DNA of 64,000 bases. It comes from Isoetes taiwanensis. Its lineage: Eukaryota; Streptophyta; Lycopodiopsida; Isoetales; Isoetaceae. This document shows positions 23,986 through 60,769 of the stretch, piece after piece (position 1 is the first letter of the stretch; each line of letters opens with the position of its first letter). Made by a program: the position numbers and the translations under genes. Location: NCBI GenBank assembly GCA_021234155.1, contig JAJEKV010000062.1, positions 1,074,261 through 1,138,260 on the forward strand. The letters are read 5' to 3'. Below the pieces are notes generated by a model that saw nothing but the letters and a program-made list of their open reading frames with translations, made no database searches and was not told the DNA's origin.

Positions 23986-24145
23986 GTATTAGATGTGTGT
24001 TTTGTCATCCCATGGGCATGTTCATAGAGATTCATCCCAGCCGTCCAATCACGAAATGAAAGGCCAGGATAATGCCACCTCATTGAGGTGCATGGATGGC
24101 CATGATGGGCATGCATGGACATGCATAGGGGCATGCACCATATCC

Positions 24146-26590: not shown

Positions 26591-26689
26591 CAAGTAAAAT
26601 TTTATACTACGTCATCTTTTGCAGGCCCTAAACTTAACAATTTCTTGTATATATCTTATAAATATAGAAACTCATGGGGGTAGTTACAA

Positions 26690-29600
26690 AATGGCACATT
26701 ATATATAAATTTTCGATCTTGGCCCTTGGATAAAAAGTTAGTGAGGTGGCAAATCCTTATCCCTTGAATTTTGAAGGGGGCATGCATGGGCATTCATGGG
26801 GGCATGCACCACATCCCCGGACCGTTAGATCGAAAGGGGAGGATAAATCCTGGCCCTTGATTTTTGTGAGGAAGGTGCGAGGAAGGTAGCCAAAAAATGA
26901 ATTTGGTATAGCAGATCTTAACCGTTAGATCAAAAGGTGAGTATAAATCCTAGCCATTAACTTTTTAATATTAAATTATTATTATTTTTTTTAAGGAGGT
27001 GAGGTGGCACTAATGAGGTGGCAAAACATTTATCAAATAGACTTTCTAGGAAGCTTCCTTTTGTTTAATCGCCTTGAAAGACACGTAGCTTGCAGTAGAG
27101 GGGTCCGACGAAGGTGGGACCCACGCCATTGGACTCCTCTCATCGAAAGCTTTCTAATGAGTGGTGCTTTGCAACTATTTTGTCGCAGCTGCAACCAACG
27201 TGATCGAACACTAAGAATCTTTTTGGAATCTTTGAGATTCAAGGAATCTATAGTAAGTCGAGGGAATCTAGGGGAATAGGATCGCAGGGAATCTAGAGGA
27301 ATATCATGAGAATCTTAGAGAATCTATGGGAATCCCAAGAGAGCATCTTTGAGAATGTAAGGGAATCTAAAGGAATCTTGATAAAATCTTTAAGAACCTA
27401 AAGGAATCTTGATGGAATCTTGGGGAAATCTTCATAGAATCTATGGGAACTATAGGAATCTGAAGAGAATCTATCGGAATCTCAAGCGCTTCTTTGGGAA
27501 TCCAGGGGAATCTTGATAAAATCTTTAAGAATCTAGAGGAATCTTACCAAATTGTATTGTTAAAGTGCAGGAACCTAGATTAATATTTGGGAAATTTACC
27601 AAAATAACCTTAATTATTGACTTAATTCCCAAAAAGCCCTTTATATTTTTGAAATTCTCAAAATGCCCTTAATTTTTAAGTATTTTCCCAAATAGCCCTT
27701 TGTATTTTAAAAATCATCAAAAACCACGTTTTCACAATAGATGGTCATTATTTACACAAGGAAATGTTTCTTACATATCACAGCAATTTGAAAAATAAAT
27801 TTTAGAACACCACATTAAGACAAAATATGCAATGGAAATATCAAATAGGATTTCTGCGACCGTGTTCATTATGGCCACCATTACCACAACATGTGCACTT
27901 AGAAGCATCCTTTTGTTTAATCGCCTTCAAAGGCACGTAGCTTGCAGTAGAGGGGTCGGACGAAGGTGGGACCCACGCCATTGGACTCCTCTCGTCGAGG
28001 AGCTTTCCAATGAGTGGTGCTTTGCAACTATTTTGTCGCAGCTGCAACCAACGTGATTGAACAATAAGAATCTTTTTGGAATCTTTGAGATTCAAGGAAT
28101 CTATAGTAAGTTGAGGGAATCTAGGAGAATCTTTATAGGATCGTAGGGAATCTAGAGGAATATCATGAGAATCTTAGAGAATCTATGGGAATCCCAAGAG
28201 AGCATCTTTGAGAATGTAAGGGAATGTAAGGGAATCTTGATAAAATCTTTAAGAACCTAGAGGAATCTTGATGGAATCTTGGGGAAATCTTCATAGAATC
28301 TATGGCAACTAGAGGAATCTGAAGAGAATCTATAGGAATCTCAAGCGCTTCTTTGGGAATCTAGGGGAATCTTGATAAAATCTTTAAGAACCTAGAGGAA
28401 TCTTGCCAAATTGTATTGTCAAAGTGCAAAGTGCAGGAACCTAGATTAATATTTGGGAAATTTACCAAAATAACATTAATTATTGATTTAATTCCCCAAA
28501 AGCCCTTCATATTTTTGAAATTCTCAAAATGCCCTTGATTTTTAAGTATTTTTCCAAATAGCCCTTTGTATTTTAAAAATCATCAAAAACCACGTTTTCA
28601 CAATAGATGGTCATTATTTACATTAGGAAATGTTTCTTACATATCACAACAATTTGGAAAATAAATTTTAAAACTCCACATTAAGACAAAATATGCAATG
28701 GAAATATCAAATAGGATTTCTGCGACCATGTTCATTATGACCACCATTACCACAACATGTGCACTTTGTATAACAAAATGGCACATTATATATAAATTTT
28801 CGATCTTCGCCCTTGGATAAAAAGTTAGTGAGGTGGCAAATCCTTATCCCTTGAATTTTGATGGGGGCATGCATGGGCATTCATGGGGGCATGCACCACA
28901 TCCCCGGACCGTTAGATCGAAAGGGGAGGATAAATCCTGGCCCTTGATTTTTGTGAGGAAGGTGCGAGGAAGGTAGCCAAAAAATGAATTTGGTGTAGCA
29001 GATCTTAACCGTTAGATCAAAAGGTGAGCATAAATCCTAGCCATTAATAAAAAGGCACTCTCATTAATAAAAAGGTAATGAGGTTGGCAAAACATTTATC
29101 AAATAGACTTTCTAGGAAGCTTCCTTTTGTTTAATCGCCTTCAAAGGCACGTAGCTTGCAGTAGGGGGGTCGGACGAAGGTGGGACCCACGCCATTGGAC
29201 TCCTCTCGTCGAGAGCTTTCCAATGAGTGGTGCTTTGCTACGATTTTGTCACAGCTGCAACCAACGTGATCGAACACTAAGAATCTTCTAGGAATCTTCG
29301 AGATTCAAGGAATCTATAGTAAGTTGAGGGAATCTAGGAGAATCTTTATAGGATCGCAGGGAATCTAGAGGAATATCATGAGAATCTTAAAGAATCTATA
29401 GGAATCCCAAGAGAGCATCTTTGAGAATGTAAGGGAATCTTGATAAAATCTTTAAGAACCTAGAGGAATCTTGATGGAATCTTGGGGAAATCTTCATAGA
29501 ATCTATGGGAACTATCGAATCTGAAGAGAACCTATAGGAATCTCAAGCGCTTCTTTGGGAATCTAGGGGAATCTTGATAAAATCTTTAAGAACCTAGAGG

Positions 29601-29945
29601 AATCTTACCAAATTGTATTGTCAAAGTGCAGGAACCTAGATTAATATTTGGGAAATTTACCAAAATAACCTTAATTATTGGCTTAATTCCCAAAAAGCCC
29701 TTCATATTTTTGAAATTCTCAAAATGTCCTTAATTTTTAAGTATTTTCCCAAATAGCCCTTTGTATTTTAAAAACCATCAAAAACCACGTTTTCACAATA
29801 GATGGTCATTATTTACACAAGGAAATGTTTCTTACATATCACAACAATTTGGAAAATAAATTTTAGAACACCACATTAAGACAAAATATGCAATGGAAAT
29901 ATCAAATAGGATTTTTGGGACCGTGTTCATTATGGCCACCATTTG
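26690..29945. repeat. Composite block repeat with minisatellite modules
   Basis: The segment starting tggcacattatatataaatt at 26690 recurs at about 28780 with high identity (offset about 2090 bp). Inside, a module with tgtttaatcgcc, gtagcttgcagtagagggg and a short GAATCT array (27200-27550, 28060-28420, 29270-29620) is followed by a 350-bp AT-rich module beginning caaattgtattg and containing cacgttttcacaatagatgg (27549-27900, 28408-28765, 29607-29945). The first modules are the same family as at 24146-25961. The block therefore holds three copies of a module pair plus two longer flanks, arranged by nested duplication. Confidence 0.8.
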
Positions 29946-31954: not shown

Positions 31955-32410
31955 CAGTTGGGTTCGCCTCGGCGAACTTCACAGTCCTCGCCAAGCGAAC
32001 CCGTCGCGTCGCCTAAGCGAACCCGCAATTAGCGTGGCGGTGGATGGGGGCCGTCAAGCACAAGTGGCACCTCTACGGGTCGCCCGGGCGAACCACGAAC
32101 CCGATCGATATGGCCGGGCTCTCGCCCAGAATGGCGGGGCATGCAAGGAAAGCGGGGCATTTTATTGCCTTCTTACCGGGTTCGCCCAGGCGAACCCTCT
32201 GGCACGTCAGGTCAGAATGGAAGGGCATGCCCTGTGGCACGTCAGGTCATAATGGGAGGCAGGCATTTATTGTCGTCCTGCCAGGTTCGCCCAGGCGAAC
32301 CCATTGGCGAACATTGGCAGGGCTGGCGGATTCTGGCGGATCCGGTTCTGCCGGTCGCGCGGGCCGTTACACCGCGTGACCGGAGGGTTCGCCCGGCGAA
32401 TCCTCCACTC
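31955..32410. repeat. GGGTTCGCC/GGCGAACCC palindrome array
   Basis: At least seven copies of a motif such as gggttcgcccaggcgaaccc lie near 31962, 31990, 32012, 32078, 32180, 32283 and 32388, several followed by tggcacgtcaggtcagaatg. A degenerate copy, gttcgctgaagcgaaac, and single half-sites (gtgttcgctgg) recur near the right end of the island at 34830-34990. Confidence 0.75.
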
Positions 32411-32499
32411 CGCATTAACTTCGGCGGCCTTAATGAAGAAGCGGTCGGCGAGTACGCCTTCCTTCACCGCCTTCCTACTCCATTTTTCCTTGAGCGACC

Positions 32500-33278
32500 A
32501 TGTCTTACTTAGAGGCAGTCCCGCCAGTCGGCATGGATGAGTGTCTCCTGCCGTTTGGCCTGGAGAGCGGTGTTCTCCATCCTGGATGCATCGGTAGCAT
32601 CGTAGAATGGTACGCCAACTCGCACTGTCTTTACCCGTTAAGTCTGTTGAGTGTGCTTGTTTACCATATTTGTTTTGTTGTAGGGAATACCACGGCACTT
32701 GGTGCCTCGTAAGAAGGGTGACCCAGGTTGAAAGCGGTCGGGCCCCTACCGTTGCCCAGAGGTGGATTTGCACTGCACTTGGGTGTACTCACTTCGTCGA
32801 CAAGATATGCCGTGACCCTGGATTTCTGGGTTTGACACGTGATGGAGCTTGGGGCCACCATCAGAGCCACCACGCAGATCTTTGGTGGCCCATCGACGAC
32901 ATTCCAGACCCGCCACCTGACCGCAGAAAATTGAATTGCGCATGCAGTGGTGTCCGAAGCGTGAGAGGGCGGCTTTCGGCGTCGAAGATCCCCGCCAAAG
33001 CCGCACGAATGCCGGAGGCCGCCGCATTACGTGAGATGCGTGGAAACAAGGCACTACAAGAATGCGCTGCAGCGCGTCCTAACCCCCGAGGCGCCCCGAG
33101 GCTTTTCCGAAGGACCGGGACGCTATGTTGCATGAGGCCGCGACACAAAGATAAAGCGGGGCGTGAGAGGATGCAAACCTTTCATGAAGGTAGCATCGTA
33201 GTCGAGCTAGTGCCACAGTGGGGTTCTACGAAGATCGACCGCGATATGCTCTTCTCAATGATCGGGCCATTGCATTGA
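32500..33278 (+). CDS. Two-exon reading frame, Cys/Arg-rich protein, unknown
   Basis: Exon 1, 32500-32609, begins MSYLEAVPPVGMDECLLPFG and ends at a GTACGC donor. A 74-bp intron ends in TTTTGTTGTAG; exon 2 runs 32684-33278. The phases match exactly and give 234 residues without a stop. Features: WEYHGTWCLVRRVTQ across the junction, a Cys cluster RWICTALGCTHFVDKICRD, an Asp/Pro-rich WWPIDDIPDPPPDRR, and an Arg/Ala-rich basic second half. I do not recognise the family. Downstream pieces (PEHLQIPARLQLPSLFWEEV near 33860; LIPDLIEACTPDGQWEEGH near 34050; EAERRELLMMDPRVYHDYVQ near 34220) also look coding but are split among frames, so the gene could once have been longer. It belongs to the GC-rich island and is probably its cargo or transposase. 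Confidence 0.4.
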
Positions 33279-33799
33279 CAGGTTGGCGGGCCATTTGCCC
33301 ACGAGGCGTGAGCCGCTAGCCGAGCTCCTCGGGATACAAGAGTCTCACCTAGGGTATGGTGTGGGTCCATCTTCGCCACTAGTTTCGGGTCGGGGTCCAC
33401 ACTCCATCCGATCCCTCCTTCGCCGAGGAGAGTGCATTGCAGCCGACAGGGGATGAATTTGCAGCGCATGGTAGGAACACCGAAGTTCCAAATCGGGAGG
33501 GAGGTCGATTCGTGCTCCATTCATGGGACAGTCCGCCTCAAACGGCCGATCTCTATATGGCCACCCCTCCTTCCATAGGCCGCTTATAGGTGACAGTGGT
33601 CCCATTAGGGGCCGCCAGTCTTTGACGACATAGTGAGGATCGCAATGGTCGGCACAGGCATGGCACATACCTTGACCTCACCGCTTTACCCCCGATCGTA
33701 ATGTCGAGGGAGCCGAGGCATGGATGACGCATCGAAACCACGCGGTTTCTTCATGTACCACCATGGAGAGTTTGACAGGCACACCATCTAGAGCTACCT

Positions 33800-34388
33800 G
33801 GTGTGTGTACCCATTCGAGGATGGTCCCAGCCCCACAGAAGGTCAGCAGAGTTCCCCGAGCACTTGCAGATCCCGGCCAGGTTGCAGCTTCCGTCCCTCT
33901 TCTGGGAGGAGGTTAGGGTCTTCACCCACTTTTACGACCGGCCAGGATCACCGGCCACCTTGCTCGGGTCACAGCGGCAAGGCGGCGGATAGTGTAGCTA
34001 CTTGGATATGCGCGGAGGCGGCTTGCAGGGCCAAAGCATGCGACGTGCAGCTCATACCTGACCTCATCGAGGCTTGCACACCCGATGGACAGTGGGAGGA
34101 GGGACACATTCGAGTGCTGATGAGGTACATCTTGGGTTTACTTTGTATGCATCGTCGTTCCGCGACTAACCACCGGGCGCCTACAATGCGTCAGGCGCCT
34201 TGCGGCACATGTTGGGAGAAGCAGAGCGTCGTGAGTTGCTGATGATGGACCCCCGTGTCTATCACGACTACGTTCAGTCGGAGTCATACAACGTGCCTCC
34301 TGAGAAGTGCATGTCCCGCCTTCTTCCTGCTGAGCATCCTGACTGGGGTACACTCCGTCTGGTCCTATGGCCCATCGTCACAAAGTAA
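33800..34388 (+). pseudogene. Decayed coding pieces of the GC-rich island
   Basis: Three pieces with protein-like composition lie in different frames: VFTHFYDRPGSPATLLGS near 33920, LIPDLIEACTPDGQWEEGH near 34050 with a GTACAT donor-like site at 34122, and a last piece at 34200-34388 with EAERRELLMMDPRVYHDYVQ and LLPAEHPDWGTLRLVLWPIV. An acceptor-like GCGTCAG lies before the last piece, but the phases differ by one base. No family was recognised. Downstream, 34400-34830, no coding unit could be assigned. Confidence 0.3.
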
Positions 34389-35049
34389 GCACGCACGTCA
34401 TTGCTTTAGTTTCAATTCTAAAGGTCATTTCTGCCTTGAACGTGCACATAGAAGAGCTGAAAATATTACATCTTTGGCGTGCAGTGGTCATTGGATGCTT
34501 GTTGCCCTCATACGAGACGCGGACCTGCGTACCAGCCTGGGCCTTAGAGATGACGATCATGCGAGTGGTGGTGCCGACAACACTACCACCCACCGTCTCG
34601 GTCTTTATCAACCTCCGGCGCTTAAGCTCGTGGAGTGTTTCTTGTGCCCTTGTGGTCTCCCACTTCATGCGCCCTTGTGCTCCATTGTGGCGATCTCACC
34701 TGCACTCTCTTGCCCTGGGTAGCGACGACTACGGGTCTTCGGCGGCCCAGGCGTGCCGTGGCTTACATCCGGTGGGGTGCCGCGGCGTATATGCGGCCAA
34801 TGAGTTTGCGTGCCATTAATGCCGCCTGGGGTTCGCTGAAGCGAAACCGTGCTTGCCACGCACGCCGTGCCCACCCGCACGCCACTTTCGCCAGGGCCAG
34901 CAGGGGTTATTGTGTTCGCTGGGCCCCTTACCCCGCCCCTTTCCGCGTCATTTTTGTGTTCGCTGGGAGAATGCATAGGAGTTCGCTGGTAATTTCTGGG
35001 TTAAACTGGGAGAACTTCGGTTGGCTGACGAGTCAATTTTGGGAGCCAA

Positions 35050-41366: not shown

Positions 41367-41371
41367 AAGGT

Positions 41372-43030
41372 TGTGACGTTCCAGACGATTATACCTGTCC
41401 CCGTGATCGCGATATCAGATCGCTGCCACGCCGCATTACGCCACTCGACCGACGCGGTACGCTTAACGCAGTAGCCGTGGGTAGCCCTAGGGGGCAACGT
41501 GCCAGAAATATGTGTAACTATTAATGTGCACATTTTCCAATGTACACATTAATGTGGGCACACATTTCCATGTGGTCACTTGATGCCAAGTGGGCCACAC
41601 CCATAGGTGCAATTAATGTGCACATTTTCCAATGCACATTAATGTGGGCACACATTTCCATGTGGGCACATTTTGCCACCTAGCCATTAAAGGCAAGTGG
41701 GCCCATTACCAATTATCCCACATGCCTAAAGGGGATAATTGGAAACCCTAGCCAACCCCTTGTCTATTAAGGGAGGGAAACCCTAACTTGCCCAATTTTC
41801 GTTTCTAGGGTTTTAGAACTCTGTTCTGGCTGCCTCAACAGCCAAAACCGCCTCCCAGACTCTGCCTGAGAGGTTTGCACCATTGGTTTCCCCTTGATTC
41901 GAAGCGCCAAACAGATGGTCGAAGCTCAGTCGAGGAGCCACTCAAGGATCAGGTATTTGGCCAATTAGATAGTCTAAACCCTATTTCAGTCATAGAATCA
42001 GTAGGTTTAGCCTATTAAATTGCCCATAGCAGCCTTCTAGATCTCTAGATACCAACCTCTAACTAAAGAACCTAACTTTATGATGTAGATTAGATATAGT
42101 TCTTTAGTTCCTCTGTGATGTATGTGGATGATGTATCTCTATGAACTCCTTGTATTGGGAAGGGGGGTAGAGACCTAAAGCTTGGTAGTAGATGCTCCTA
42201 GAGTAGCCTCTCTAGCACACTATAGATTCGGCCTGTGTACAAGAGCCACACCAGGTTGTGGGTGAAGGGGCCAGACTGGCTAAGAAGGAGGTTCATGTCC
42301 CGACTCCTGAAAGATCCCTCTGGTGTGTAAGGCCTACCAGGGATCATTGTGACTAGGTCTAATGGCTCACCACTGAGTGCGGGTGAGGCATGGACTCAAC
42401 ACCCGTGAAGTGGTGTACACTTTCCAAAGGGTTCACCGAATACGGGCAAAGGGCCCTCTAGTCACCTTGAGCTCCAAGATGTAGACTTCTGGAGGGAGTG
42501 ATCCCTTCCTGCCCCATCGGAACTGGGAGGATGAAGCCCAGGAATAGCCCTTCTGGCTATGCATCCGGCGGGCTACAGTCAGGTCCCGACGCTTTTCAGC
42601 CTACTCTGCAAAGTGTGCACAGGAGGGGCGGATGGAGTGGACAACCCTATGCCATGTTCATATGCCAGCCCAATCCATTGCCATGAATTCTCGCCAAGAA
42701 TGAACTCGAGACCCCCGCCGGGCCATCCCCTTGAGTCCGAGCCTTGGGTAGAACTCCCCATATGTATTGTGCTCACCTTGTTTATGCAGATGTGATGGAC
42801 CACCCCTCGAGGTGGATATGTGCTTATGTTATATACTGACATGTATGTTTACGCTTCCGCAGCTAGGTAGGCCCTGAGGGAGACGGGGTAAAATGACCCC
42901 TTCACTCTTCCCACTGGAACCAGTCACGGTCGCAGTGTTATGTGGAGGGCCCTGTATCGGCATGGAGCTGGTATGGGGGAGGAACTCCTGTTTGTATTGA
43001 GAGCACCTTATACGAGTAGGGGACGTCACA
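41372..43030 (+). repeat. 5' long terminal repeat
   Basis: It starts TGTGACGTTCC and ends GGACGTCACA, so its ends form the inverted repeat TGTGACGT/ACGTCACA. Internal landmarks shared with the 3' repeat include gtgggtagccctaggggg, atgtgggcacacatttccat, agccaaccccttgtctatta, ggaaaccctaacttgcccaa and cgcttccgcagctaggtagg. The short segment gtgggcacacatttccatgtgg is itself present twice (about 41562 and 41645). The copy lacks about 0.85 kb that the 3' repeat has after aacgcag (41471). Confidence 0.9.
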
Positions 43031-43031
43031 G

Positions 43032-43045
43032 AGGTATCAGAGCCA
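43032..43045 (+). promoter_or_regulatory. Primer-binding site (initiator tRNA-Met)
   Basis: AGGTATCAGAGCCA directly follows the 5' repeat; it matches the usual plant retroelement primer site TGGTATCAGAGCC complementary to the 3' end of initiator methionine tRNA, except for the first base. Confidence 0.8.
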
Positions 43046-43234
43046 TGTTCTTGGAGACCAAGAGCAAAGCACTGGCCATGTTCCCAGTAGTACTAACTTG
43101 ATAGGATCCTTAAACCTCGAAAAATGGGAAATTTTTTTCTCATTTTTGTAGTTTATGCTAAGCTAGTAACAGTTAAAAGGGATAAAAACGTAAGAAGACT
43201 AAAATTGGTGAGCCAACATCCAAAAAGGAGGGTG

Positions 43235-43586
43235 GTCTCACACGTCGCGCCAGGACAGGAAATGAGATTTTCATTTTCGGGCTGGGCGCAACGTGTGAGA
43301 CATTCAGCTTAAACACACCAAAAAGTTGTAAATTGCAGTAAAATAACTTGATAATTCTAAATTAGAGCTAAGAATCAGTAGAATTAGCATGTTACATGTT
43401 CAAAAAGTACAAAATTTGGTAGTGGGCCCCACCATGTCTCACACGTCGCGCCAGGACAGGAAATGACTTTTTCAAAATCGGGCTGGGCGCAACGTGTGAG
43501 ACCTTGCTTAATTAGGTGTTTTAGATGTTTTAAGCACCCCAAAAAGGTAGTTTAAAAGTTGACCTAAAATTGACACCTATAAATAG
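43235..43586 (+). promoter_or_regulatory. Internal promoter module 1: paired palindromes and TATA box
   Basis: Two copies of a 67-bp imperfect palindrome lie at 43235-43301 and 43436-43502, 201 bp apart. Each starts gtctcacacgtcgcgccagg and ends gggctgggcgcaacgtgtga+gac. A TATA box, TATAAATAG, follows at 43578-43586, 107 bp before the ATG of the histone-like frame. The leader contains ttcgccaaggcgatcttctg. The arrangement repeats upstream of the second cargo unit (45066-45519), which argues for function. Confidence 0.65.
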
Positions 43587-43684
43587 ACCTAGACCCCTCC
43601 CATTTCCGCGTTCTTCCCTTAGAAGCTTGCTCGTGTTCGCCAAGGCGATCTTCTGGCGCCTAGCTCCGATCGACGAACCAGCAA

Positions 43685-44922
43685 ATGATGGCCCGCACAA
43701 AACAAACTGCTCGGAAGCCTCGTGGGAGCGAATCCTCCAGCGCCAGCGGTTCTGGCCTTTTTCAGAGAGTCCTTCAGGAACGCCTTTTCCGGGAAGGCGA
43801 ATCTTCTTCGAGCGAAGATGCAGGATCGGATCGGAGCGACCACACTGAGATCATAGACGACGACCGACCAGACATCATGCATCAAATCCTCGAGGAGATC
43901 GCAGAGGAGGAGGGAAGGAGCAGGGAGCAAAGGGAGCAGACAGGGCAGCCAATAGCCGAGGAGCAACACCAGACTGAGACCCACATGCAGGAGGAGCAAG
44001 GGAGAGAAGAGCAGCAGCCGCCGAAGCTCACCCCGGATGAGGAAGCCGATCTTGCACGCTTCATCAGCAAGTATGAAGCCAAAGAGCCACGGAGCAGAGG
44101 ACTAAGAGTCGAAGACGACCCACCACAACCAAATGGGCCAAAGAAGAGAAAGGCCAAAGCCATCAAGGCAAAGCGGCAGAAACTTGTGAAGGTCGTGAAG
44201 CGAAGCAGGGGCCCCGCCATCAACGAACCATCAGCGAAGAGACCCCGCCTTCCACCGACGACATTCTGGACGACGACATACATCCCCAACCCGAGGGGGC
44301 GAAGCTCTTCAAAACCCCACCTGCGGAGAAGGAGGTACCCGGCAGTGGCACCCGAGGAAGATCAGGCCGGGCAGACACCGGCCCCCCACCTTTTCCAACG
44401 GGATAGGGTTAAAGCCCCGCCACCACAACGGAGGCGACGGATAGACCCGGCCAAGGTCTATCGAAGAAGATCAAGGAGCACAACGCTGCACATGGTGAAG
44501 TGGGAGGCATACAATGCCTACTATCGAGCACAGTGGTAAGAACAATCGGCGACATCCGACAAGAAGTCGACCTTGAAACCTCCGCCACCCAGCCCAAGCC
44601 TCCCCGAAAGCACCGTGGGAAGAAGCGAGCAAGAAGAAGAAGTTGAGGACGAGCTCTCAAGGAGATCCGCCACTTCCAGAAGAGTTACGGACTCTTGATC
44701 CCCCGGGCGCCGTTCCAGCGCTTAGTCCGTGAAGTCATGCAGGAATACAACACGGACATGCGAGTAACCGACAAAATGTTGCTGTGCCTATAGGAGGCAG
44801 CAGAGGCAAAGATAGTGCAGCATTTTGAAGATTCAACGGCCTGCACAGTGCACGCGAAGAGGGTTACCCTCATGAGGCAGGATATGTATCTTGCCAGGCA
44901 CATCAAGGGAGAACGCCCTTGA
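43685..44922 (+). pseudogene. Histone H3-tail / chromodomain-like / H3-fold protein carried by the retrotransposon
   Basis: The frame 43685-44539 (284 residues) starts MMARTKQTARKPRGS: residues 3-11, ARTKQTARK, equal histone H3 positions 1-9, including Lys4 and Lys9. Then come Ser/Glu-rich and Gln-rich acidic segments, a basic nuclear-targeting-like run (KKRKAKAIKAKRQKLVKVVK, about residues 157-176) and, at 252-284, a chromodomain-like end (DPAKVYRRR, LHMVKWEAYNAYYRAQW). After a frameshift near 44530 the downstream frame reads [76 protein letters not shown]. This is the H3 histone fold from the alphaN helix to the C-terminus. [14 protein letters not shown] and VTLMR resemble centromeric CENH3; the loop 1 length and GER ending resemble canonical H3. 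Defects: frameshift, a TGA near 44643 and TAG at 44791. H3 identity is firm; the role is inferred. Confidence 0.8.
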
Positions 44923-45065
44923 AACCTTTTTGTAAATAATGAACATTTTTTAATATAAAGAATTTTTGTGTAGATAAAGCGTCAAATCTTGTTTAAATAA
45001 GTTAAGATATTGATTTCTAGCTTTTGTTTCAGTTAAATTGGAGCTTTGAGCAAAATAGAGACGAT

Positions 45066-45519
45066 GTCTCACACGTCGCGCCAGGACAGAAAATGAGAAT
45101 CTCATTTTCGGGCTGGGCGCAACGTGTGAGACCATGCCCAAAAGTGCCCAAAACAGCTCCAAATCGACCAAATAAGGGGTCAATTCTGCCTAACTCGACG
45201 AGTTTAGTGGAATTACAGCCTTAGATCACCCAAATTGAGTAGGTCTAGCCCAATTAGGACCCATGTCTCACACGCCGCCAGCCAGACGTAAAATGAGATT
45301 CTCAAAATCGGTCGGCGCAAACGGTGAGACCTCGCACCATTTTCTTCACCAAATGATCTCCAGCTTTGCAATAGGTTCATTAGTTGTTCTTAGCATGCTT
45401 TAAACCAAAAATTAGCCTCCAAACACTCAATTGCACCTCCTAATAGGTCGGTCGAATCGCCAACTCCAAGGAATTCTAGGTCATCCAAAAATTAGGGTTT
45501 TCCACTTTTCTATAAATAG
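45066..45519 (+). promoter_or_regulatory. Internal promoter module 2: paired palindromes and TATA box
   Basis: A second pair of the same imperfect palindromes lies at 45066-45132 and 45265-45330 (199 bp apart; the second is more diverged, cacgccgccagccagacg). A TATA box, TATAAATAG, follows at 45511-45519, 116 bp after which the next cargo frame starts. The leader contains ctcgcttaggcgatcttcca, related to the module 1 leader. Between the modules and the first gene lies 44923-45065, AT-rich, likely the 3' region of the histone-like gene. Confidence 0.65.
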
Positions 45520-45634
45520 ATCCATCATTTTTCATTTGGCACCCCGCAAGTTTGCTCTCCACTCGCTTAGGCGATCTTCCAGCCCCCCGAGGCGCTTCTA
45601 CATCCGGCCTGTTACTCCCTTCTTCGCTAGATCA

Positions 45635-46170
45635 ATGACCACCGCCGACTTCAAGCGATGGTACAAATACAAGACCCATGTCGCCGAGGCGGATGTCAAC
45701 GACATCTTCCAAGTTTTGGGAAAGAAATTGATATCCAAGCCACGCTAAATGCAACCCCAAAGATACGTGCAAGTGCTAGCAGAGTTTCAAGCTAGGGTAG
45801 GACCCTCCCTTGTTCATGTTCCCCTTGCATAGGATATTTTGTTCCCCGCCCATCCTTTCAAGCGCCTTTGGAGGATGTCCCCAACATCGCCAAGTACCTA
45901 ACCAACAAAGCGCAAAGGCTGCCAGATTACATGGTCCTTACAGCCAACAGGACCAAGCACTTCTCCTACACCGCGGCCTTAGCCATTTTTTTATCCCACC
46001 GTGCCGAAAACCCAATGGGGGCAACCTCTATCCCTCCGATGGAGGTGGACCCCATAGCAGTGCAGGAAGAAGAGCAGATGCGTTTGCAATATCAGCAAGA
46101 GCAGGAAGGAGAAGACGAAGAAGAAGAGGAGTCCGACGAGCACTCGCAGGAGGAACGGCAACAAGCGTAA
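45635..46170 (+). pseudogene. Second cargo gene of the retrotransposon, unknown acidic protein
   Basis: The frame starts MTTADFKRWYKYKTHVAEAD at 45635 and is stopped at 45746-45748; the reading continues in the same frame (MQPQRYVQVLAEFQARVG) and then, after a shift near 45850, in the frame ending at 46170. That last part has VPNIAKYLTNKAQRLPDYMV, LTANRTKHFSYTAALAIFLS, HRAENPMG and a Glu/Gln-rich acidic tail (EEEQMRLQYQQEQEGEDEEE). It has its own promoter-like module like the histone-like gene. I compared it by eye with the H2A, H2B and H4 folds and saw no convincing match. The family is not recognised. Confidence 0.45.
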
Positions 46171-47460
46171 TCAGAGATGGCTTAACTTTGAGCAGAGCCG
46201 CGTAACATCGATTGCTTCCTCACTGCTAGGCATCACAAGCCTAGCCCCAATCATCATCAACCGAGAGGAGTAGTTACCCTCAACATCCGTAACCTTCCCC
46301 GAAAGTGCAGAGGGGAGCTCGATTGGACGAACTACTCCACCAGCTACGGGCAGCCGACTTGGACGACTTCATCGTCCGGGGAGCCCCTGACTTTCCGCCC
46401 AAGTGAGGGAAGCCGACACTTACACAGAGAGTCGACTTCGCATATCCGTGCCTACAAAGAAAGATCGTGCAAATGATGGACGAGCGAGAGCCGCCAACAG
46501 AGGAGGAGTTCCTCGCCTCCGTGAACGATGGGGATCCGTGGGGAAGACCACAAGCATTTTAATGCCGAGGCCTTCGACACCACCTCCATCAAGAGGAGCA
46601 GAATCGACCTCAGCGAAGTCGACTCCACAATTGAAGACCACCGACCTCACCGAAATAGAAGTCGATCTTTAATACGGAGGCAATGTGGCTCGAGGCCAAA
46701 CAAGCGAGAGGTTTCAAACGACGACAATGACAGTCCCCGAGGTACTACCGCCGCCGCCGCTAGATGGGGAGAATAGCGGTAATCAACCGCAAGTTCAGCC
46801 CCCCGTGAGGTGAAGAAGGAGTATTCATGCCGATTGCACTCTCGTGCTTCTAAGCAGGCATGCTCGCGATAGCGCCAAATGTCGACTACGCCGTCCCGGG
46901 TCAAGAGGGCAATGGCACTTGACCTCTTTCGACTTCGCCATACCCCATCGACGCCAGCGAGATTACGGTCACCGCAGCCCTTACATCCAACCGGGGTGGA
47001 AGAGCCGGTGAGAGCCTTTGCGTATGCTCGCCGCCAGTAAGCATCAGAACTTGGGTCATTCTAGGAACGACCCAAGTTAAGAAGTTCCTTGAGGACAACC
47101 CGTCGTCACCGGGCATTTCAAGATTAGTTAGACTCTTGATCCCTGAGACTTTTTGTACTAAAAATATTATATAATATATGAATATAATCTCTGCATAGCA
47201 CTTTAAATGTTTTGTTGATATATTTTTGCCCCACAACTATACCAACAAACATAAACAATGCAAGAGAACAAGGAAAACTAACCATATAGCCATGAACTAC
47301 TTGTGTATGCGCTAGAGGCCTAGGCTCGGGGAACGACAATGCCAAGACCTTAGGGAAGAAATGCACCCCCCTGCACTCCACCCCCGGCAAGGAACCTATT
47401 TGAAGATATGGAACCCATGACCCCAGAGGAAGAGATATCCCGATGAGGACGGACCTTGAG
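46171..47460 (+). other. Decayed spacer or third cargo region
   Basis: GC-rich sequence with many short frames, for example 46528-46776 (FNAEAFDTTSIKRSRIDLSE) and 46403-46672, none with a recognised motif. The segment near 47000-47110 (VKKFLEDNPSS) also looks weakly coding. Given the two units before it, a third decayed gene is possible but unproven. Confidence 0.3.
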
Positions 47461-47462
47461 CG

Positions 47463-47471
47463 TATATAAAG
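47463..47471 (+). promoter_or_regulatory. TATA box ahead of gag
   Basis: TATATAAAG lies 45 bp before the ATG at 47508. No 67-bp palindrome pair lies upstream of this one. Confidence 0.35.
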
Positions 47472-47507
47472 GCTCATAGCCGCATGCTGTGAGCTGGTTC
47501 GGGGGCA

Positions 47508-48590
47508 ATGCTCAACCGCCACAAGCATCAGCTCGAAAAACAGAAGGGACAAGAAGAGGAGCAAGAGAAGAAGATCCCCAGCTCGACCTCCTCCGACTCA
47601 AGCTCGAGTCGACCGACCGAGGAAGAAGAAGAGCAGCCCAGACCTAACAGACGCAAGGCAAAGGAACACCAAGAGGAAGGCGAGGGAACACCCCGATGGA
47701 TCGACAAAGAGACACCAGTGGCCTCCGACTACCGTAAGAAGGTAGATTCCGTGATTGGGCAATGTATGGAAGGCCCAGAATCGAATAGTTCTCTGGGAGA
47801 ACAGTCGATTGGAAGCAGAGGCATGGTCGGACTAAATGAGTGAGTACCTGCAATGCTTATGGCATGAAGGATAAAGACAAAGGAAGAGTGGCAAATGTAG
47901 CCAACTTGAAAGGAGCCGCACGGATTTGGTGGAAGGGTTATGCAAAGGCACATGGCTTGAGCAGGATGCTTGTAAGTTCGTGAAGTTTGCTAAAGCCTTC
48001 AAACGCCATTACGCCCCAAGGGAACATAAGTCTAGTATGATGCAAAGAGCTTCTACGTGTGCTGCAAAGAAGGCAACAAATCAGTCTGTAAGTATACAGA
48101 GGAATTCATGAGACTGAGGTCAGATGAAAAAGTAAATTGGGTGAGAAGCATGCAAGAGAAAGCTATATTGAGGGGTCAATGAGGAGATCCGCAAGTTTGT
48201 GAGGGCAATAAACCCTAAGACAAGATCGTAAGGCAGTCCAAGGCTATAAGCTTGCAAGGGACTGACCTCGTAATAGCGGGCGAGGGCAAAAAGATTTCCG
48301 TGACAAAGGCAAGGCGACAGAAGCTATAGCCCTAGAGCAGCCAAATTCCCAGTCCAAATTTAGAGCCCCATATGGTGGCAAACTGGGAAACAAACAAAGA
48401 GAAGAAGCAGTGTGTCCTTCAAGGACAAGCAGAGGGGTCAAACTACTCCAAAGCAAAGGCGATCCTTTTGCAGCGATGCCCAAGGAAAAGAGACAGAGTG
48501 CATAGAAAAGCAAAATTTTGTTTCAAAAAAGCTTCCAACATAGGACAAATGAAACCCGCCTCTACGCCATGAATGCAAATACTTAGCGGA
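47508..48590 (+). pseudogene. Retrotransposon gag
   Basis: Gag forms the particle that packages element RNA. The frame starting 47508 (MLNRHKHQLEKQKGQEEEQE) is a charged, Ser/Glu-rich N-terminal part of 111 residues. After a shift come the conserved gag core pieces: VANLKGAARIWWKGYAKAHG near 47900, then DACKFVKFAKAFKRHYAPRE near 47970, then YTEEFMRLRSDEKVNW near 48095. These match the capsid core of plant Ty3/Gypsy gag (retrotransposon gag family). I see no intact zinc knuckle before the protease. Several frameshifts make it non-functional. Confidence 0.75.
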
Positions 48591-48591
48591 G

Positions 48592-49254
48592 TTGGGAGAT
48601 TGGGACACTCTGTCTGACGACGACGGCGAGGAAGCCCACGACTACATTCAGGGTGAGTGTCATATCTTTGCCGCAATAGATACAGAGCAAGCAGAGAGCC
48701 AATATAAAGTAATTTCCACAATAGGGAAGGCCAAGGCCAAGTCCTTCATAGTCTTGATAGACTCAGGAAGTAGCCATAACTTTGCATCCCCCAGAATGGT
48801 CCAAATGTTGAAGTTGAAACCACTAAAGTCAAAGCCAAGGCCTGTTGTCTTAGCAAGTGGTGCAGTAAGGCAGATGGCAGGCAAAAGAATTAACTTCGAC
48901 ATCGACTTGCCAGGGATTAAGATCCAGATGGGAGCAGAAGTAATGGGCATTGGCAAGTACGACCTGATCATAGGAATGGAGTACCTTGGACCAGCAGGGG
49001 CCATTATCGATTGTGGAAAGCGGAAGGTGACCTTCCCAACACCCGACGGCAAGATCATTGAGATCACAGGTAAAGAAGTTGTTCCCATCATGCGTTGTAT
49101 GTCTTCTAAGCGAATCGCTCAAGTGCATCAAGAGCGAACAGTGGCATACATCTTCAAGCTTGAGATTGACGAGCCCGGGCGAGGAAAGCAAAGAAGACAG
49201 AGTGCTCGCCAAGTTGCCGAAGCAAATAGCTCAGCTGATCACGGAGTTCCATGA
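48592..49254 (+). pseudogene. Retrotransposon aspartic protease
   Basis: An open frame of 220 residues. The active-site motif is VLIDSGSSHNFAS (near 48755), preceded by an approach segment YKVISTIGKAKAKSFI. The second conserved block is GKYDLIIGMEYLGPAGAIID near 48955, the usual flap-side motif of plant Ty3/Gypsy proteases. The domain itself looks intact, but its upstream and downstream neighbours are in other frames. The start at 48592 is only the first usable codon; in an intact element it would be part of the gag-pol polyprotein. Confidence 0.85.
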
Positions 49255-49349
49255 TCTCTTTCCGTGATGAGATCAAACAGCTCACCAGATAGGGGAGTCG
49301 AAAGTGTGAGATAGCACTCGAACCGAGCAAAGCCGACAAGTAAGGCTCC

Positions 49350-50582
49350 ATACGTAATGACGACGCAGAGTTGACGGAGCCGAAGAAGCAATTGTAGTGG
49401 AGTTGCTCGACCTAGGCTTCATTAGACCTAGTGTCTCGCCATTTGGAGCCCATTCTCTTTGTAAAGAAGAAGGATGGCGCTTTAAGAATGTGCATAGACT
49501 ATAGGCGCTTGAACAAGCACACCATTAAGAACAAGTACGCCCCCCCCCGTGATCGTATTTAATTTGATGGATCAACTCCAAGGTGCAAAGGTCTTCCAAA
49601 ATCGACTTAAGGTCGCTTATCATCGATCGATAAAGGAAGAAGATATCCATAAGTCCGCCTTCTAACGCGGTATGGGCATTATGAGTTCACGGTAATGCCT
49701 TTCGCTTATCGAATGCCCCGCCGACGCTCATGAGGCTCATGAACGACATCTTCGTGGGAGTTTTGAGACACCTTTGTGATTGTATTCTTTGATGACATTT
49801 TGGTGTATAGCGATCCCTTGAAGAGCACGCATAACACTTAAGGAGAGTGCTAGAGAAGTTGAAGAGGCACCAGTAAATGCCAAGTTGTCGGGCGTCACTT
49901 CGCAAAATGGGAAGGTGGAATACCGTGGTCATGTGATCTCGCAGTAAGGAATCTCGACGGATCCCCGCCAAGATTGAAGCCGCCATTCAAAGGGCCGGGC
50001 CGAAGAATATGCATGAAGTCGGTTTTTCTACCAGCAGTGGTACTACAGAAGTTCGTGGAAGAATCTTTGCTAAGATAGCGCCCCGCTAACGACTTGACGA
50101 GGGTGGAGAAAGTGAAAGATTGGGCGTAGCATTGGCACAAGAAAGCCCGCTGTGGTTTGAATTGTTGAAGGAAGCTTTAACAACCGCCCCGCCTTAACCC
50201 CGCTGACCCTCGAGAAAGATAAGCTTGTAGCAACAGACGCGAGTAAGATAGCTACAAAAAGCAGCCCTCATGCAAGAAGAGCGCGTGGTAGCGATGATTC
50301 TAGGAAGATGAACGACGCAACGCCGCTTACCCCACCCACGCATCGTGAATTGCTTGCGGTTGTCGTGGCATTAAGAATTTGGAGGCACTACCTTTTGGGA
50401 AGGAAGTTCCAGCTTGGATACGCACTCATCGAGCCTCCAAGATGTATTCACGCGAACCACACCTCAACCCGAGGCGTAGAAGGTGGATGGAGTTCCTTGA
50501 AGAGTATGACTTTGATATAGTCTACAAGCCGTGGAAGCTCAATGTGGTAGCGATGCGCTTTCAAGGCATCCCCGACAACTAG
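49350..50582 (+). pseudogene. Retrotransposon reverse transcriptase and RNase H
   Basis: The RT pieces in order: [16 protein letters not shown] near 49405, [20 protein letters not shown] near 49465, LMDQLQGAKVF near 49565, and the active site VIVFFDDILVYSD near 49785. RNase H pieces: LVATDASKIA near 50225, HRELLAVVVALRIWRHYLLG near 50340, then SKMYSREPHLNPRRRRWMEF and LEEYDFDIVYKPWKLN near 50500. The order and motifs are those of Ty3/Gypsy. Frameshifts between nearly every block show old decay. Confidence 0.85.
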
Positions 50583-50599
50583 AGTGCATTGCAATGCAA

Positions 50600-52080
50600 T
50601 TTCAACGCCTCCAAATGAACTTTGGTAAGAAGATTGAAGAGTCCTTGCCAACGGACGGGGATTTCAAGGAAGTGATGGGCAAGCCTCTCTAGAGAGGCTA
50701 GAACAGATAAGGAGCGGGAAACCTTTAAACATTATAAGAAGGAAGGCAACCTGTTATACCATAAGAACAAGTTGTGCGCACCAATCATCGTGTAAGGAAA
50801 TTGATCCTCCACGACACGCGACAACAAAATTCAATAGCCGGCCATGCGATTCATGAAAACATATTTCAAAGTGCGCAGCAGCCTATTATTGGCCAGAATG
50901 AAGAAGCAAGTAGCTCGCTACATCGAGAATGCCGCTTATGTCGCCAGACGAAGGCGAAGCAACTTCAATTCCAGTGAGCATTAGAGCCATTGGCGGTGCC
51001 AAACGCTAAGTGGGAGGTGATTAGCATGGATTTCATCACAGACTCCCAAGGACCGCAAGAGGGAAAGATGCTGATGGTAGTAGCCTCGATAAGTTGTCGA
51101 AAATGGCACATTTTGTGCCTTGCAGACCACGATACAGCCTATGGATACAAATGGGCTCTTCACCAAAGAGATTTTCGTGCTTCATGGCATGCCAAGGGAG
51201 ATTATCTCCCATGTGGATCCGGTTCATGAGTGCCTTCCGCAAGACCTCTTTACGACGATTCTCGACCAAGTTATCCATGAGCACGCATATCATCCCCGCA
51301 TCGATGGCCAAACGGAGCTTTACCAACAGATTTTAGAGGACATGCTACTTAAACTATGTCCGAATAAGCAAGGTATGTGGGAAGAATTTATTCACTTGGT
51401 GGAATTTGCCTACAATAGCACCAAGCGTGAATCATCCCAAATGTCGCCGCTTATGATTAATTACGCTATCGCTGTAACTCCGCATTAATTTGGCACAACC
51501 CCGCGGTCAAAAGTGGAAGTTTCAAGCAGCCAGATGTTGGCCGATATGCGCAGCCTTGTGGAAGAAGTTCGAGGGTATTTGCTAGCAGCAAGAAGTCGAT
51601 AAAAAGCATCGCCGACAAGCATCGAACAAATGAGAGTTCAAAGTTGGAGATGATGTATGGCTCAAGATCAAGGTGAAGCAGCTAAGCTCGACCTGAATTG
51701 CAAGAAGCTTGCTCCAAGGTGGGCTGGACCTTCGTAATAGTCAAGAGAGTAGGTAATCAATCCTACAAGCTAGACTTGCCAAAGACACCTAAAGATTCAT
51801 AAGGTCTTCCACGTGAGTTTGTTGAAGAAGCACACTCCAAATCCGCACGGTCTTGGACTCTCAACGTTGTTGGAAATGACGGAGGAGCAAATTGAAATAG
51901 TTCCGCAATTGATTCTTGATAAAGCTTTCAAGAAAACGAGGAGATCGAATTCCTCCAAGATTTGGTCAAGTGGGGACACTTACCGCTGGAAGACGCGACA
52001 TGGGTACTTAAGAAAGATTTAGTGAAGCAAAGTACCACGCTTTATGGAGCAATGGGACGGCAAGGTCATCTCCCAAGAAA
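50600..52080 (+). pseudogene. Retrotransposon integrase with chromodomain-like end
   Basis: The zinc-binding part near 50810-50960 has the H..H...C..C arrangement (LHDTRQQNSIAGHAIHENIF, HRECRLCRQTKAK). The catalytic core has MDFITDSQGPQEGKMLMVVA (first Asp) near 51025, MSKMAHFVPC near 51094, LHGMPREIISHVDPVH with the second Asp near 51180, and HPRIDGQTELYQQILEDMLL (Glu region) near 51300. Downstream FHVSLLKKH near 51810 opens the C-terminal module, and across a shift LILDKAFKKTRR and LVKWGHLPLEDATWVLKKDL (about 51918-52020) form a chromodomain-like segment as in chromoviruses. In that group the chromodomain recognises modified histone tails and steers integration. Confidence 0.8.
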
Positions 52081-52962
52081 TCGGCTCAGCATGTCGATTT
52101 GTGTAGATTAATTCTATGTTTAGTTAAGATTAATCTACGATGCAACCTACGCTTGGTATGGGTCGCATGCGTTGTTATCGGCGATGAGACCACTACGGTG
52201 ATCTCTAGGGCGTGGTATAATGTCAATGTAGGCATGACCGCTGCTTTCCTTTGGGCGAAAGTGGAAGGTAGATTAGAAAGTCTACTGTCCGACGGTAGAG
52301 ACGACCTCGAGAAAAGGAGGTCATGAAGGAATGCACCGATAGGAAAAGCACCTCTAGCCCCATATATGCTTTGATAGGAGGAATCGGCCTTCACGCCCAT
52401 ATACCGAAGGACCTATCCTCCACGCCGGGCAACTAGGGTGTAGGCATGAGCGCATATAGGCATATAGGTGTCGCCTCCACGGCCATAATGGAAGATTCAC
52501 CCTCTTCCTACGGAGATTAGCCATGCATCCATGTAGATAGGTGGGTGGTCACCATATAACCAAAAAATTTTATTAATAATTATAATGGTACTAACGTAGT
52601 ATCGACCGCAAGCAGCCAATAGAGCCTCGAGGGCAAGGAGGTCGAAGAAGTTTAAGACTTGCAACACAAATTTTGTTGGAATGTGTTGCAAGGAATGAAG
52701 AAGTACCTCTGGACGTTAATTTTAATTTTGATAAACTTAATTGTCATGTTAACTGAATTATTGAGTAATCTCTTTTAATGATGTTATGAATTGATAAGTT
52801 ATTTCATAATGTGATGGCGTGATAATGTCCTAAAAATATTACCTTAAGGTAATCTTAATAAATGTGTAAGTATTATAGTAGTTATAGTATGCATCAGGTT
52901 GATTGCAGGTTAGGACGATCCCAAGGTGGGGAGACCCACGATGTTGCGGACAGCATCATTTC
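52081..52962 (+). other. 3' non-coding region of the LTR element
   Basis: Between integrase and the polypurine tract lies about 0.9 kb without recognisable coding sequence. A second polypurine-like stretch, caaggtggggaga, lies at 52922-52934, duplicating the one at the LTR border. Confidence 0.5.
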
Positions 52963-52975
52963 AAGGTGGGGAGAA
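52963..52975 (+). promoter_or_regulatory. Polypurine tract
   Basis: AAGGTGGGGAGAA directly precedes the 3' repeat, as required for priming plus-strand DNA. Confidence 0.75.
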
Positions 52976-55517
52976 TGTGACGTTTCCAGACGATACGGTC
53001 CCGTGATCGATATCGCATCGCCTGTCACGCCGCATTAACGCCCCACCGACCGACGGTACGCCAAACGCAGGGCATAAAATTGATACTGGGTAGCAGAAAT
53101 CACCGTCCGGACGTCGCTTAAAGTGCTTAAACGCAGCGATTTTTCAGCACATAATAAGCATTTAACGTGCGGCAAGCACCCGATGAAATATTTTTTGGTT
53201 GATTCACAATAATTCTTCACGAAAGTGACTCAAATTTGATCTCCTAATACGTTTTTGCATCTCCAATCTAATGGAAGAGACGGCATTAGATTTTATGAAG
53301 CCATTTGTGAGATATAAGCTTTTCCCTTATAGATACCAGAAATCATTTTTTAGCTTTTTTCACTATCAATCCTCTATGGAATGATCTGAAACTTGACCTC
53401 CAAAGACGTTTTTGCATCACGAATCCAATGGAACAGACGGCATCAAATTCTGTATTGTAGTTTGTAAGATATTAGGCTTTTACTTGGAAAATATCAGAAA
53501 TCGTTTTTGGCCTCTTGCGGTGAAAATACTCAATGGATTTACCTGAAACTTGGTGTCCTAGAACGTTTTGTACTAAAAATCCATAGGAACCGACGGCAAT
53601 CCATTTCGGCAAGTAGTTTATGAGATATTGGCTTCTACTCTATGGCAACCTTGATCGAATTTTTCATGATTGTGCTCAAAATATGCAATGTAGAAGCCGC
53701 AATTTCATAAGGATCCTTAGTTTTGGATGCCGATTCCAATGAGCCATAGCTTGTCAGATTTGGTGAAGTAGATCAAATGCCACAAATGGAGTGCCCCTCG
53801 CCGTTACTGAAGCATCTGCTCATATCAAGAAATTTTAGCCGCTGATTGATTTTGATGGTCCTAATGGTCCGTGTCTTCTCATAGTGTCCATTTATTTACG
53901 CAGCTTAATATGTGCTTCGCCAAAAGTGTACCCCACTAGCAATTTTGTACCCGTAGCCGTGGGTAGCCCTAGGGGTAACGTGCCGTAAATATGTGCAACT
54001 ACTAATGTGCATTTTTCCAATGTACACATTAATGTGGGCACACATTTCCATGTGGTCACTTGATGCCAAGTGGGCCACACCCATAGGTGCAATTAATGTG
54101 CACATTTTCCAATGTACACATTAATGTGGGCACACATTTCCATGTGGGCACATTTTGCCACCTAGCCATTAAAGGCAAGTGGGCCCATTACCAATTATCC
54201 CACATGCCTAAAGGGGATAATTGGAAACCCTAGCCAACCCCTTGTCTATTAAGGGAGGGAAACCCTAACTTGCCCAATTTTCGCTTCTAGGGTTTTAGAA
54301 CTGCTCGCTCGCCGCCTCAACAGCCAAAACCGCCTCCCACTCGAGAGGTTTGCACCATTGGTTTCCCTTGATTCGAAAGCGCCAAAGAGGGATGGTCGAG
54401 CTCAGTCGAGGAGCCACTCAAGGATCAGTATTTGGTTAATTAGATAGTCTAAACCCCTGCTTCACCATAGAATCAAGAGGTTTAGCCTATTAAATTGCCC
54501 ATAGCAGCCTTTCTAGATCTCTAGATACCAACCTCTAACTAAAGAACCTAACTTTATGATGTAGATTAGATATAGTTCTTTAGTTCTTCCTCACATGTAT
54601 GTGGATGGTGTATCTCTATGAACTCCTTGTATTGGGAAGGGGGTAGAGACCTAAAGCTTGGTAGTAGATGCTCCTAGAGTAGCCTCTAGCACACTATAGA
54701 TTCGCCTCAGGTACAAGAGCCACACCAGTGTTGTGGGTGAAGGGGCCACCGGGCTAAGAAGGAGGTTCATGTCCCGACTCCTCAAAGATCCCTCCGGGTG
54801 TGTAAGGCCTACCAGGATCATTGTGACTAGGTCTAATGGCTCACCACCGAAAGCGGGTGAGGCATGGACCCGACACCGCGGAAGTGGTGTACACTTTCCG
54901 CTGGGTTCACTCAATACCGGCAAAGGGCCTCTAGTCACCTTGAGTCGGCATGTAGACTTCGAGGGGAGTGATCCCTTCCCGCCCCATCGAATCGGGAGGA
55001 TGAAGCCCAGAATAGCCCTTCCGGGCTATGCATCCCACTGGCTACAGTCAAAGTCCCGACGCTTTTCAAATTACCTACTCGCAAAGTGTGCACAGAGGGG
55101 CGGATGGAGGGACAACCCTATGCCATGTTCATATGCCACCAATCCATTGCCATGAATTCTGCCCAGAATGAACTCGAGACCCCAGCCGTCCATCCATCCC
55201 CTTGAGTCCGGAGCCTTGGGTAGAACTCCCCATATGTATTGTGCTCACCTTGTTTATGCAGATGTGATGGACCACCCCTCGAGGTGGATATGTGCTTATG
55301 TTATATACTGACATGTATGTTTACGCTTCCGCAGCTAGGTAGGCCCTGAGCGAGACGGGGTAAAATGACCCCTTCACTCTTCCCACTGGAACCAAATACG
55401 GTTGCAGCAAAGTTGTTATGTGGAGGGCCCCAGATCGCATGGAGCTGGTATGGGGAGGAACTTCCTCGCTTGTATACCTGGTGAGAGCAATCGTGATACC
55501 AGTAGGGGACGCCATTA
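52976..55517 (+). repeat. 3' long terminal repeat, with an extra 0.85 kb
   Basis: It starts TGTGACGTTTCC and ends at a degraded GGGGACGCCATT, with the target duplication AAGGT following. It matches the 5' repeat except that about 0.85 kb (about 53087-53945) has no counterpart there. This extra part holds three diverged tandem units of about 150 bp (gtttttgcatc, aatggaa, gacggcat, gagatat.gctttt; near 53250-53370, 53400-53520, 53550-53660). Confidence 0.85.
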
Positions 55518-55754
55518 AAGGTAAAAGTCCGCTGACCGTGACCGTAAAGGTTTTTTTTTTTAATGAGAAATATGCTAAAAGCTTGGAACAATATCTATCC
55601 TGCCTTTGCTTTCTCAAAAGTGGATCTAGTACATTTTGAGATGTCTATCTTTTGATCCCTATCTATAGTGATCATCCAAACTATGTTCTTGCTCTTAAGC
55701 ACCCCCAAATTTACAAAAAGTGGAAATCAAGTGGCTTAAATTTTATTAAAGACC

Positions 55755-60584: not shown

Positions 60585-60765
60585 TCAATGCACGCCAAGC
60601 GTGTATATTTTTTTCCTATATCAGTTTACACGCCGAGCGTGTAAAAAATTTTATCCTCAGAATGTACACCAAGCGTATATTTAGTTTCTGAGTTATATAT
60701 ATATACAAGTTTTTGTAATATGATGGACTGCATGATGCCAACCCTTTAAAACACACCCAGCGTCA
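60585..60765. repeat. CACGCC/GCGTG palindromes
   Basis: Three copies, cacgccaagcgtg near 60591, cacgccgagcgtg near 60629 and acaccaagcgtat near 60666, plus a half-site acacccagcgtc near 60753. They belong to the same motif family as those in the introns of the ParB-like gene at 18.0-19.8 kb. Confidence 0.75.
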
Positions 60766-60769
60766 AAGA

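Follow-up and report, generated by a model that had tools for sequence, protein, structure and literature searches.

Does a retrotransposon own a histone gene and, if so, what would it do with the protein? In a 64,000-nucleotide stretch of the Isoetes taiwanensis genome (contig JAJEKV010000062.1; hereafter the window), an earlier sequence-only reading had noticed an exact histone H3 tail and an H3 fold inside a Ty3/Gypsy element, and had proposed that a captured host H3 serves the element as a decoy, in chromatin assembly or in targeting. Transposons are silenced via H3 marks, and an H3 that is made and preserved by an element would offer a direct route to questions about elements and chromatin.

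A chromovirus with two accessory genes

We found that the window contains a decayed Ty3/Gypsy chromovirus at 41372–55517, lying between two copies of AAGGT (41367–41371 and 55518–55522; limits set by eye). Its 5' LTR (1,659 bp, 41372–43030) and 3' LTR (2,542 bp, 52976–55517, approximately 0.88 kb longer) were delimited by LTR alignment with the ends placed by eye. The two LTRs are 95.7% identical (1,527 aligned bases with 66 mismatches, plus 83 gap columns), indicating that the insertion is not new. The element with its LTRs stands as the sequence-only reading had described it, but the AAGGT target-site duplication is probable rather than proven, because the ends of the LTRs differ slightly. 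A stretch of about 0.88 kb in the 3' LTR (53078–53952), which contains diverged internal repeats, has no counterpart in the 5' LTR.

All coding parts of the element are on the plus strand. The primer binding site GGTATCAGAGCC (43033–43044) fits the end of the plant initiator tRNA-Met, and a polypurine tract AAGGTGGGGAGAA was identified by eye at 52963–52975. Two accessory genes are located between the primer site and gag: the H3-like gene (43685–44922) and a gene that we call ORF2 (45637–47140, end approximate), which is also decayed. A TATAAATA box precedes each gene, at 43578–43585 and 45511–45518, respectively. Downstream of ORF2 are gag (47408–48590, placed by position and by likeness to frames in copies), protease (48592–49251; PF08284, E 1.5e-10), reverse transcriptase (RT) and RNase H (49300–50580; RNase H by PF17919, E 2.4e-9, RT by eye), integrase (50765–51900, by eye) and a chromodomain at the integrase C-terminus (51923–52108). 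Gag, RT–RNase H and integrase are decayed and their limits approximate; the window copy retains only short open pieces. In another copy, L011, the integrase was recognized by PF17921 (E 1.5e-20) and PF00665 (E 1.1e-9). The chromodomain matched PF00385 at E 0.0029 in the window and at 2.5e-5 in copy L019, where it is cut by the end of the stretch; both values are below the Pfam cut-off, the latter just so. Thus, the LTRs, the primer site, the gene order from gag to integrase (RT by eye) and the terminal chromodomain are those of a chromovirus.

Four palindromes of about 70 bp lie before the accessory genes, two before each, and three of them fold far better than shuffled sequences: 43233–43303 (z −7.2) and 43434–43506 (z −4.4) before the H3-like gene, and 45064–45134 (z −9.5) and 45259–45334 before ORF2, the last being degenerate in the window (z −1.6; 13 of 200 shuffles were equally good). 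They recur, the first two included, at the same places in most copies of the family.

The H3-like gene starts MMARTKQTARKPRG at 43685: ATGATG leads into codons for ARTKQTARKPRG, and the frame stays open for 284 codons (43685–44539). The exact tail had been noticed correctly; the codons for ARTKQTARK, H3 residues 1–9, occupy 43691–43717. The fold downstream of the tail (44659–44919) was likewise borne out: it matched PF00125 at E 1.1e-23 with an in-frame stop entered as X (1.6e-27 for the fold of copy L011), and among 175 matched PDB sequences the best 60 were all histone H3 (best E 1.1e-25). In the window copy, however, the gene has decayed: the fold is out of frame with the tail and itself contains one in-frame stop.

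Elsewhere in the window, a plus-strand frame at 5724–6323, within a GC-rich stretch at 4–9 kb, matched the endonuclease/exonuclease/phosphatase domain PF03372 (E 1.3e-7) and probably represents a LINE. A second GC-rich stretch (32001–35000; 57–59% versus about 40% around it) contains overlapping open frames, one of which was scanned and matched no Pfam family above the cut-off. On the minus strand, five open frames of 123–212 codons at 16269–19479, likewise matching no Pfam family above the cut-off, are perhaps another mobile element. Long, degenerate GATTCT-rich tandem arrays occupy 24107–29943 and 60735–62377 in mutually opposite orientations.

Copies across the genome

We searched the I. 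taiwanensis assembly (1,658,258,908 bases in 1,110 contigs) with the H3 fold. The published figures are 1658.30 Mb, 204 scaffolds and 909 contigs, for a polished nanopore assembly (PMC8566536), so some frameshifts may be sequencing errors. From 8,923 first-look candidates, 150 places were scored and all 150 matched, the window copy at 100% and the others at 93–98%; the gene is therefore present at no fewer than 150 places, and a frame confined to this one copy, which would have pointed to a one-off insertion, was not what we found. An open frame of at least 400 codons, with no stop inside the match, surrounded 37 of the 150 matches.

Twenty of the 149 other copies, drawn from the top of the list and partly picked for long open frames, were read over 10 kb. 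An LTR end with the primer-site leader was present upstream in 19 of them and gag downstream in 19, and the full order of LTR, leader, H3, ORF2, gag, protease and RT was found in 15; the remaining five (L012, L014, L015, L016 and L027) each miss one part. The stretch from LTR to gag was colinear between copies, with the same spacing, on many contigs. With the window included, tail and fold formed one open frame of 415–439 codons in 7 of 21 copies, encoding a protein of approximately 417 residues with the layout MARTKQTARKP (6/7 copies; L012 is intact with one tail residue changed), a long linker and then the H3 fold. The exact tail codons were present in the window and in 12 of the 20 other copies. 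In addition, 18 of 21 copies have the TATAAATA TATA box before the H3-like gene (for L013 the scan did not reach the position where it would lie) and 19 of 21 have it before ORF2, which suggests that both accessory genes may have promoters of their own.

ORF2 comprises about 505 codons (508 in L025 and 504 in L023) and matched no Pfam family. Among 7,997 database candidates scored, it had one relative, P0104, which was 46% identical over the full query; folded alone, this relative gave a useless model (mean pLDDT 31.6).

Selection on tail, linker and fold

We calculated dN/dS by the Nei–Gojobori method over pooled pairs of copies, using our own script. In the seven intact copies, dN/dS was 0.016 over codons 2–11 and 0.009 over the fold, against 0.171 over the linker (pS 0.37–0.50). 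Across the 15 copies with an in-frame tail (six of the 21 were left out as out of frame or missing), tail dN/dS was 0.024 over codons 2–11, and ARTKQTARKP was exact in 13 of the 15, with synonymous changes. Over all 21 copies the fold gave 0.006. Values for the fold are too low by some amount, because the copies taken were those whose protein matched it best; the tail was not part of the query that selected them. For comparison, dN/dS was 0.039 for the protease (in the 8 of 20 copies where its frame is open) and 0.014 for a 44-codon block of ORF2 (11 of 20 copies). These estimated ratios (about 0.02 for the tail and about 0.01, biased low, for the fold) show strong purifying selection on both. 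Such conservation is not unique to the tail: of 313 ten-residue segments of the linker, 19 were as conserved or more, and a linker block at alignment codons 261–311 (dN/dS 0.037) may represent an additional domain.

Related families in the same genome

When a canonical plant H3 was used as the genome query, the 150 scored places comprised 15 host H3 genes, each complete in one frame (96–98%), and 135 further places (71–86%). Three of the latter (L033–L035), read over 8.5 kb, had the primer-site leader upstream (3/3) and a gag match downstream (2/3), and L033 also had RT. Their first gene encodes an H3 fusion of about 410 codons whose N-terminal part differs from that of the window's family; we call these type B. 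In L033, the second gene is a homologue of ORF2 (25% identity; E 2e-10, in a single comparison), and over 258 residues the RT core shares 83% identity with its counterpart in the window's family. Twelve more type B loci, read over 2 kb without their surroundings, encode the same kind of protein. None of the 15 type B loci starts with the H3 tail; three N-terminal types were distinguished (L041 lacks the N-terminus). Neither the palindrome core nor the exact TATAAATA box was present in L033–L035. The histone fold and ORF2 are common to the window's family and type B, and the tail is not. In the three type B copies compared, dN/dS was 0.112 for the N-terminal part and 0.037 for the fold.

Both families align to host H3 without gaps over 87 residues, with 76 of 87 identical in type B and 50 of 87 in the window's family (one form each). 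Of the DNA-contact (19) and H3–H3 contact (15) positions in the fold, type B keeps 18 and 14, respectively, and the window's family 10 and 10 (again one form each). In an H3 tree of 72 rows and 89 columns, which was mostly unresolved, type B was placed beside host H3, though support for this was weak (80/77), and type A (the window's family) was on a long branch.

Given the many colinear copies, the constraint and the occurrence of the H3 fusion with ORF2 in other families as well, we conclude that the H3-like gene is a gene of the retrotransposon and not a one-off capture. The sequence-only reading was thus correct in regarding the H3 as a gene of the element, but a plain captured H3 it is not. 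Histone H3 has about 135 residues with the tail directly before the fold; here the intact proteins have 415–439 residues, with a long linker in between, and ARTKQTARK begins the protein in the window's family and not in type B. Nor does the protein resemble CENH3, which would have a lengthened loop 1 and a divergent tail; the alignment to host H3 is gapless and the tail canonical.

Database relatives and residue 10

A protein database search was scored on the fold, with a length limit that shut out ordinary H3. The fold was matched by 102 of 139 candidates (226–520 residues), most of which are known as proteins alone; some are plainly other things, such as a chytrid protein, a green-alga protein and an orchid CENH3. 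Under our pattern definition, an H3 tail opens 28 of the 102 sequences, and in 18 of these it reads exactly ARTKQTARK. Residue 10 in these 28 was Asn (23), Thr (3), Asp (1) or Ala (1) and never Ser, although the 28 fall into few families and are therefore not independent. In the window's family, residue 10 was Pro in all 15 in-frame tails; it is Ser in host H3. Ser after the tail Lys was kept by two of the 102, both outside the 28: P0033 (an H4–H3 fusion) and P0061 (chytrid). In six H3 fusions (P0076, P0079, P0080, P0081, P0087 and P0090), loop 1 of the fold is seven residues longer, a lengthening also seen in some CENH3s; P0080 has 305 residues and 50 member sequences.

The tail frame alone (43685–44536) had no relative among 1,578 database candidates; the database seemingly lacks these copies, which are abundant in the genome. 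The N-terminal 176 residues of the P0014 type were matched at none of 106 scored places in the I. taiwanensis genome, and profile comparisons for a shared N-terminal domain (A3/A2, A2/A5 and A4/A2) aligned only the fold. A model of an H3-fusion database relative (mean pLDDT 53.4) matched 28 PDB entries at E values up to 10, all of them above 0.001. In viral contigs, 267 and 133 stretches fitted the pattern, none of which was confirmed.

Proposed function and rival explanations

Taken together, a high-copy chromovirus lineage carries a conserved H3-fusion gene between primer site and gag, followed by a conserved ORF2, and in the window's family the product consists of H3 residues 1–9, Pro, a long charged linker and an H3 fold. 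We give a probability of roughly one half to the reading that this protein acts with host H4 in chromatin, showing its tail there, to the benefit of the element. It would be made from its own TATA promoter, enter the nucleus, pair with host H4 through the conserved fold and be laid into chromatin, whether at target sites or on the DNA of the element itself. The displayed tail would offer Lys4 and Lys9 for writing or reading, with a residue 10 that could not be phosphorylated, and the element would gain control of the chromatin state of its copies, or their targeting. Since fold and ORF2 are common to the families and the tail is not, a chromatin role with H4 is favoured over a decoy that consists of the tail alone. 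For the window's family, formation of a normal nucleosome is doubtful in view of the DNA-contact and H3–H3 positions that are not kept; its protein might form a loose nucleosome or just an H3–H4 pair. ORF2 accompanies the H3 fusion in both families, which suggests that the two may work jointly.

The sequence-only reading had also linked the tail to chromodomain integrases that read Lys9 methylation. This link is weaker than claimed. By eye, the chromodomain is of plant type II, in which two of the aromatic cage residues are missing: in L019 the first cage position is Ile and the third Leu, with the middle Trp kept. Published work describes the partner of such chromodomains as unidentified (PMC6317226, PMC3350952), so that a Lys9-reading integrase is not a given. 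A broader proposal, that a chromovirus lineage in several plants regularly carries H3 fusions as an accessory gene and that these proteins are laid into host nucleosomes at new copies, where tails with Lys4 and Lys9 and without the Ser10 phospho-switch would form an element-controlled or mitosis-proof mark, we regard as speculative.

Alternatively, the protein could stay off DNA, its tail occupying the host enzymes and readers of H3 Lys9 or Lys4 so that silencing is loosened. The exactness of the tail amid synonymous change, its distance from the fold along the chain and the altered DNA-contact positions in the window's family argue for such a decoy, but a decoy needs no whole H3 fold, and the fold is constrained at least as much as the tail. 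Moreover, the related type B families lack the tail, so mimicry cannot be the function common to all, and we consider the decoy rather unlikely. Action in the particle or as a tether is also improbable in our judgement: here the fold would compact the cDNA or tie the integration complex to nucleosomes via H4, with ORF2 as partner. The joint occurrence of H3 fusion and ORF2 in both families, and the constraint on both, are in keeping with it; conversely, TATA boxes of their own and a place outside gag–pol do not favour particle proteins, ORF2 has no known domain and the model of its relative is of no use.

Three further explanations carry very little weight. Host gene capture by plant elements is common, and the window copy is broken, as expected of a passenger gene without function for the element; such a gene would hardly show strong purifying selection alongside many synonymous changes, nor the same architecture in two families, and we ruled it out on colinearity and selection as very improbable. 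A captured CENH3 that steers the element to centromeres would suit the fact that CRM-clade chromoviruses live at centromeres, and the database group of P0080 does have a lengthened loop 1. However, the gapless alignment of both families to host H3 led us to reject this reading, and the canonical tail also speaks against it, leaving it a slim chance at best. That the assembly is at fault, or that a single element happens to harbour an unrelated nested gene, has next to no probability: some frameshifts in this assembly may be of sequencing origin, but the same order and spacing recur on many contigs, and this colinearity refutes it.

If the broader proposal of fusions laid into nucleosomes at new copies is true, genomes like that of I. 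taiwanensis carry a histone variant written by a parasite. An element lineage that makes and preserves an H3 lets one ask whether host nucleosomes can take up a parasite's histone, and what is recognised by plant type II chromodomains. Furthermore, a naturally selected H3 tail that keeps Lys9 and has lost Ser10 is a test of the methyl/phospho switch.

Comparison with known systems

Retand/Ogre-type elements, a non-chromovirus lineage, have a long internal region with extra ORFs. The window element shares the long internal region and the extra coding; we know of no histone in Retand/Ogre-type elements. The tail of influenza NS1 is a histone mimic, a short copy of the H3 N-terminal tail. The window's family resembles such mimics in placing the short H3 tail on a foreign protein, but adds a real H3 fold, which means that its protein has H3 ancestry.

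Plant chromoviruses have the same LTRs, tRNA primer site, gag–pol order and chromodomain after the integrase (PMC6317226); the window element differs in its two accessory genes before gag, one of them an H3 fusion. In the text of that survey, "histone" occurs once, and not for a gene of an element (PMC6317226). We found no description of a histone-encoding LTR retrotransposon in the open-licence literature, a scope outside which preprints and most subscription papers fall; the sequence-only reading had likewise known of none. The word "histone" is absent from the main texts of the genome papers on I. taiwanensis (PMC8566536) and I. sinensis (PMC10541799).

Single histones are carried by viruses, namely H4 by bracoviruses and H3 by giant viruses; they are host-derived and thought to enter host nucleosomes (PMC9145170). 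The words retrotransposon and retrovirus are absent from the main text of that review (PMC9145170). In both cases, a host histone resides in a genetic parasite, but the viral carriers are DNA viruses (PMC9145170). A chromovirus that keeps an H3 gene under constraint would be doing something like what histone-bearing DNA viruses do.
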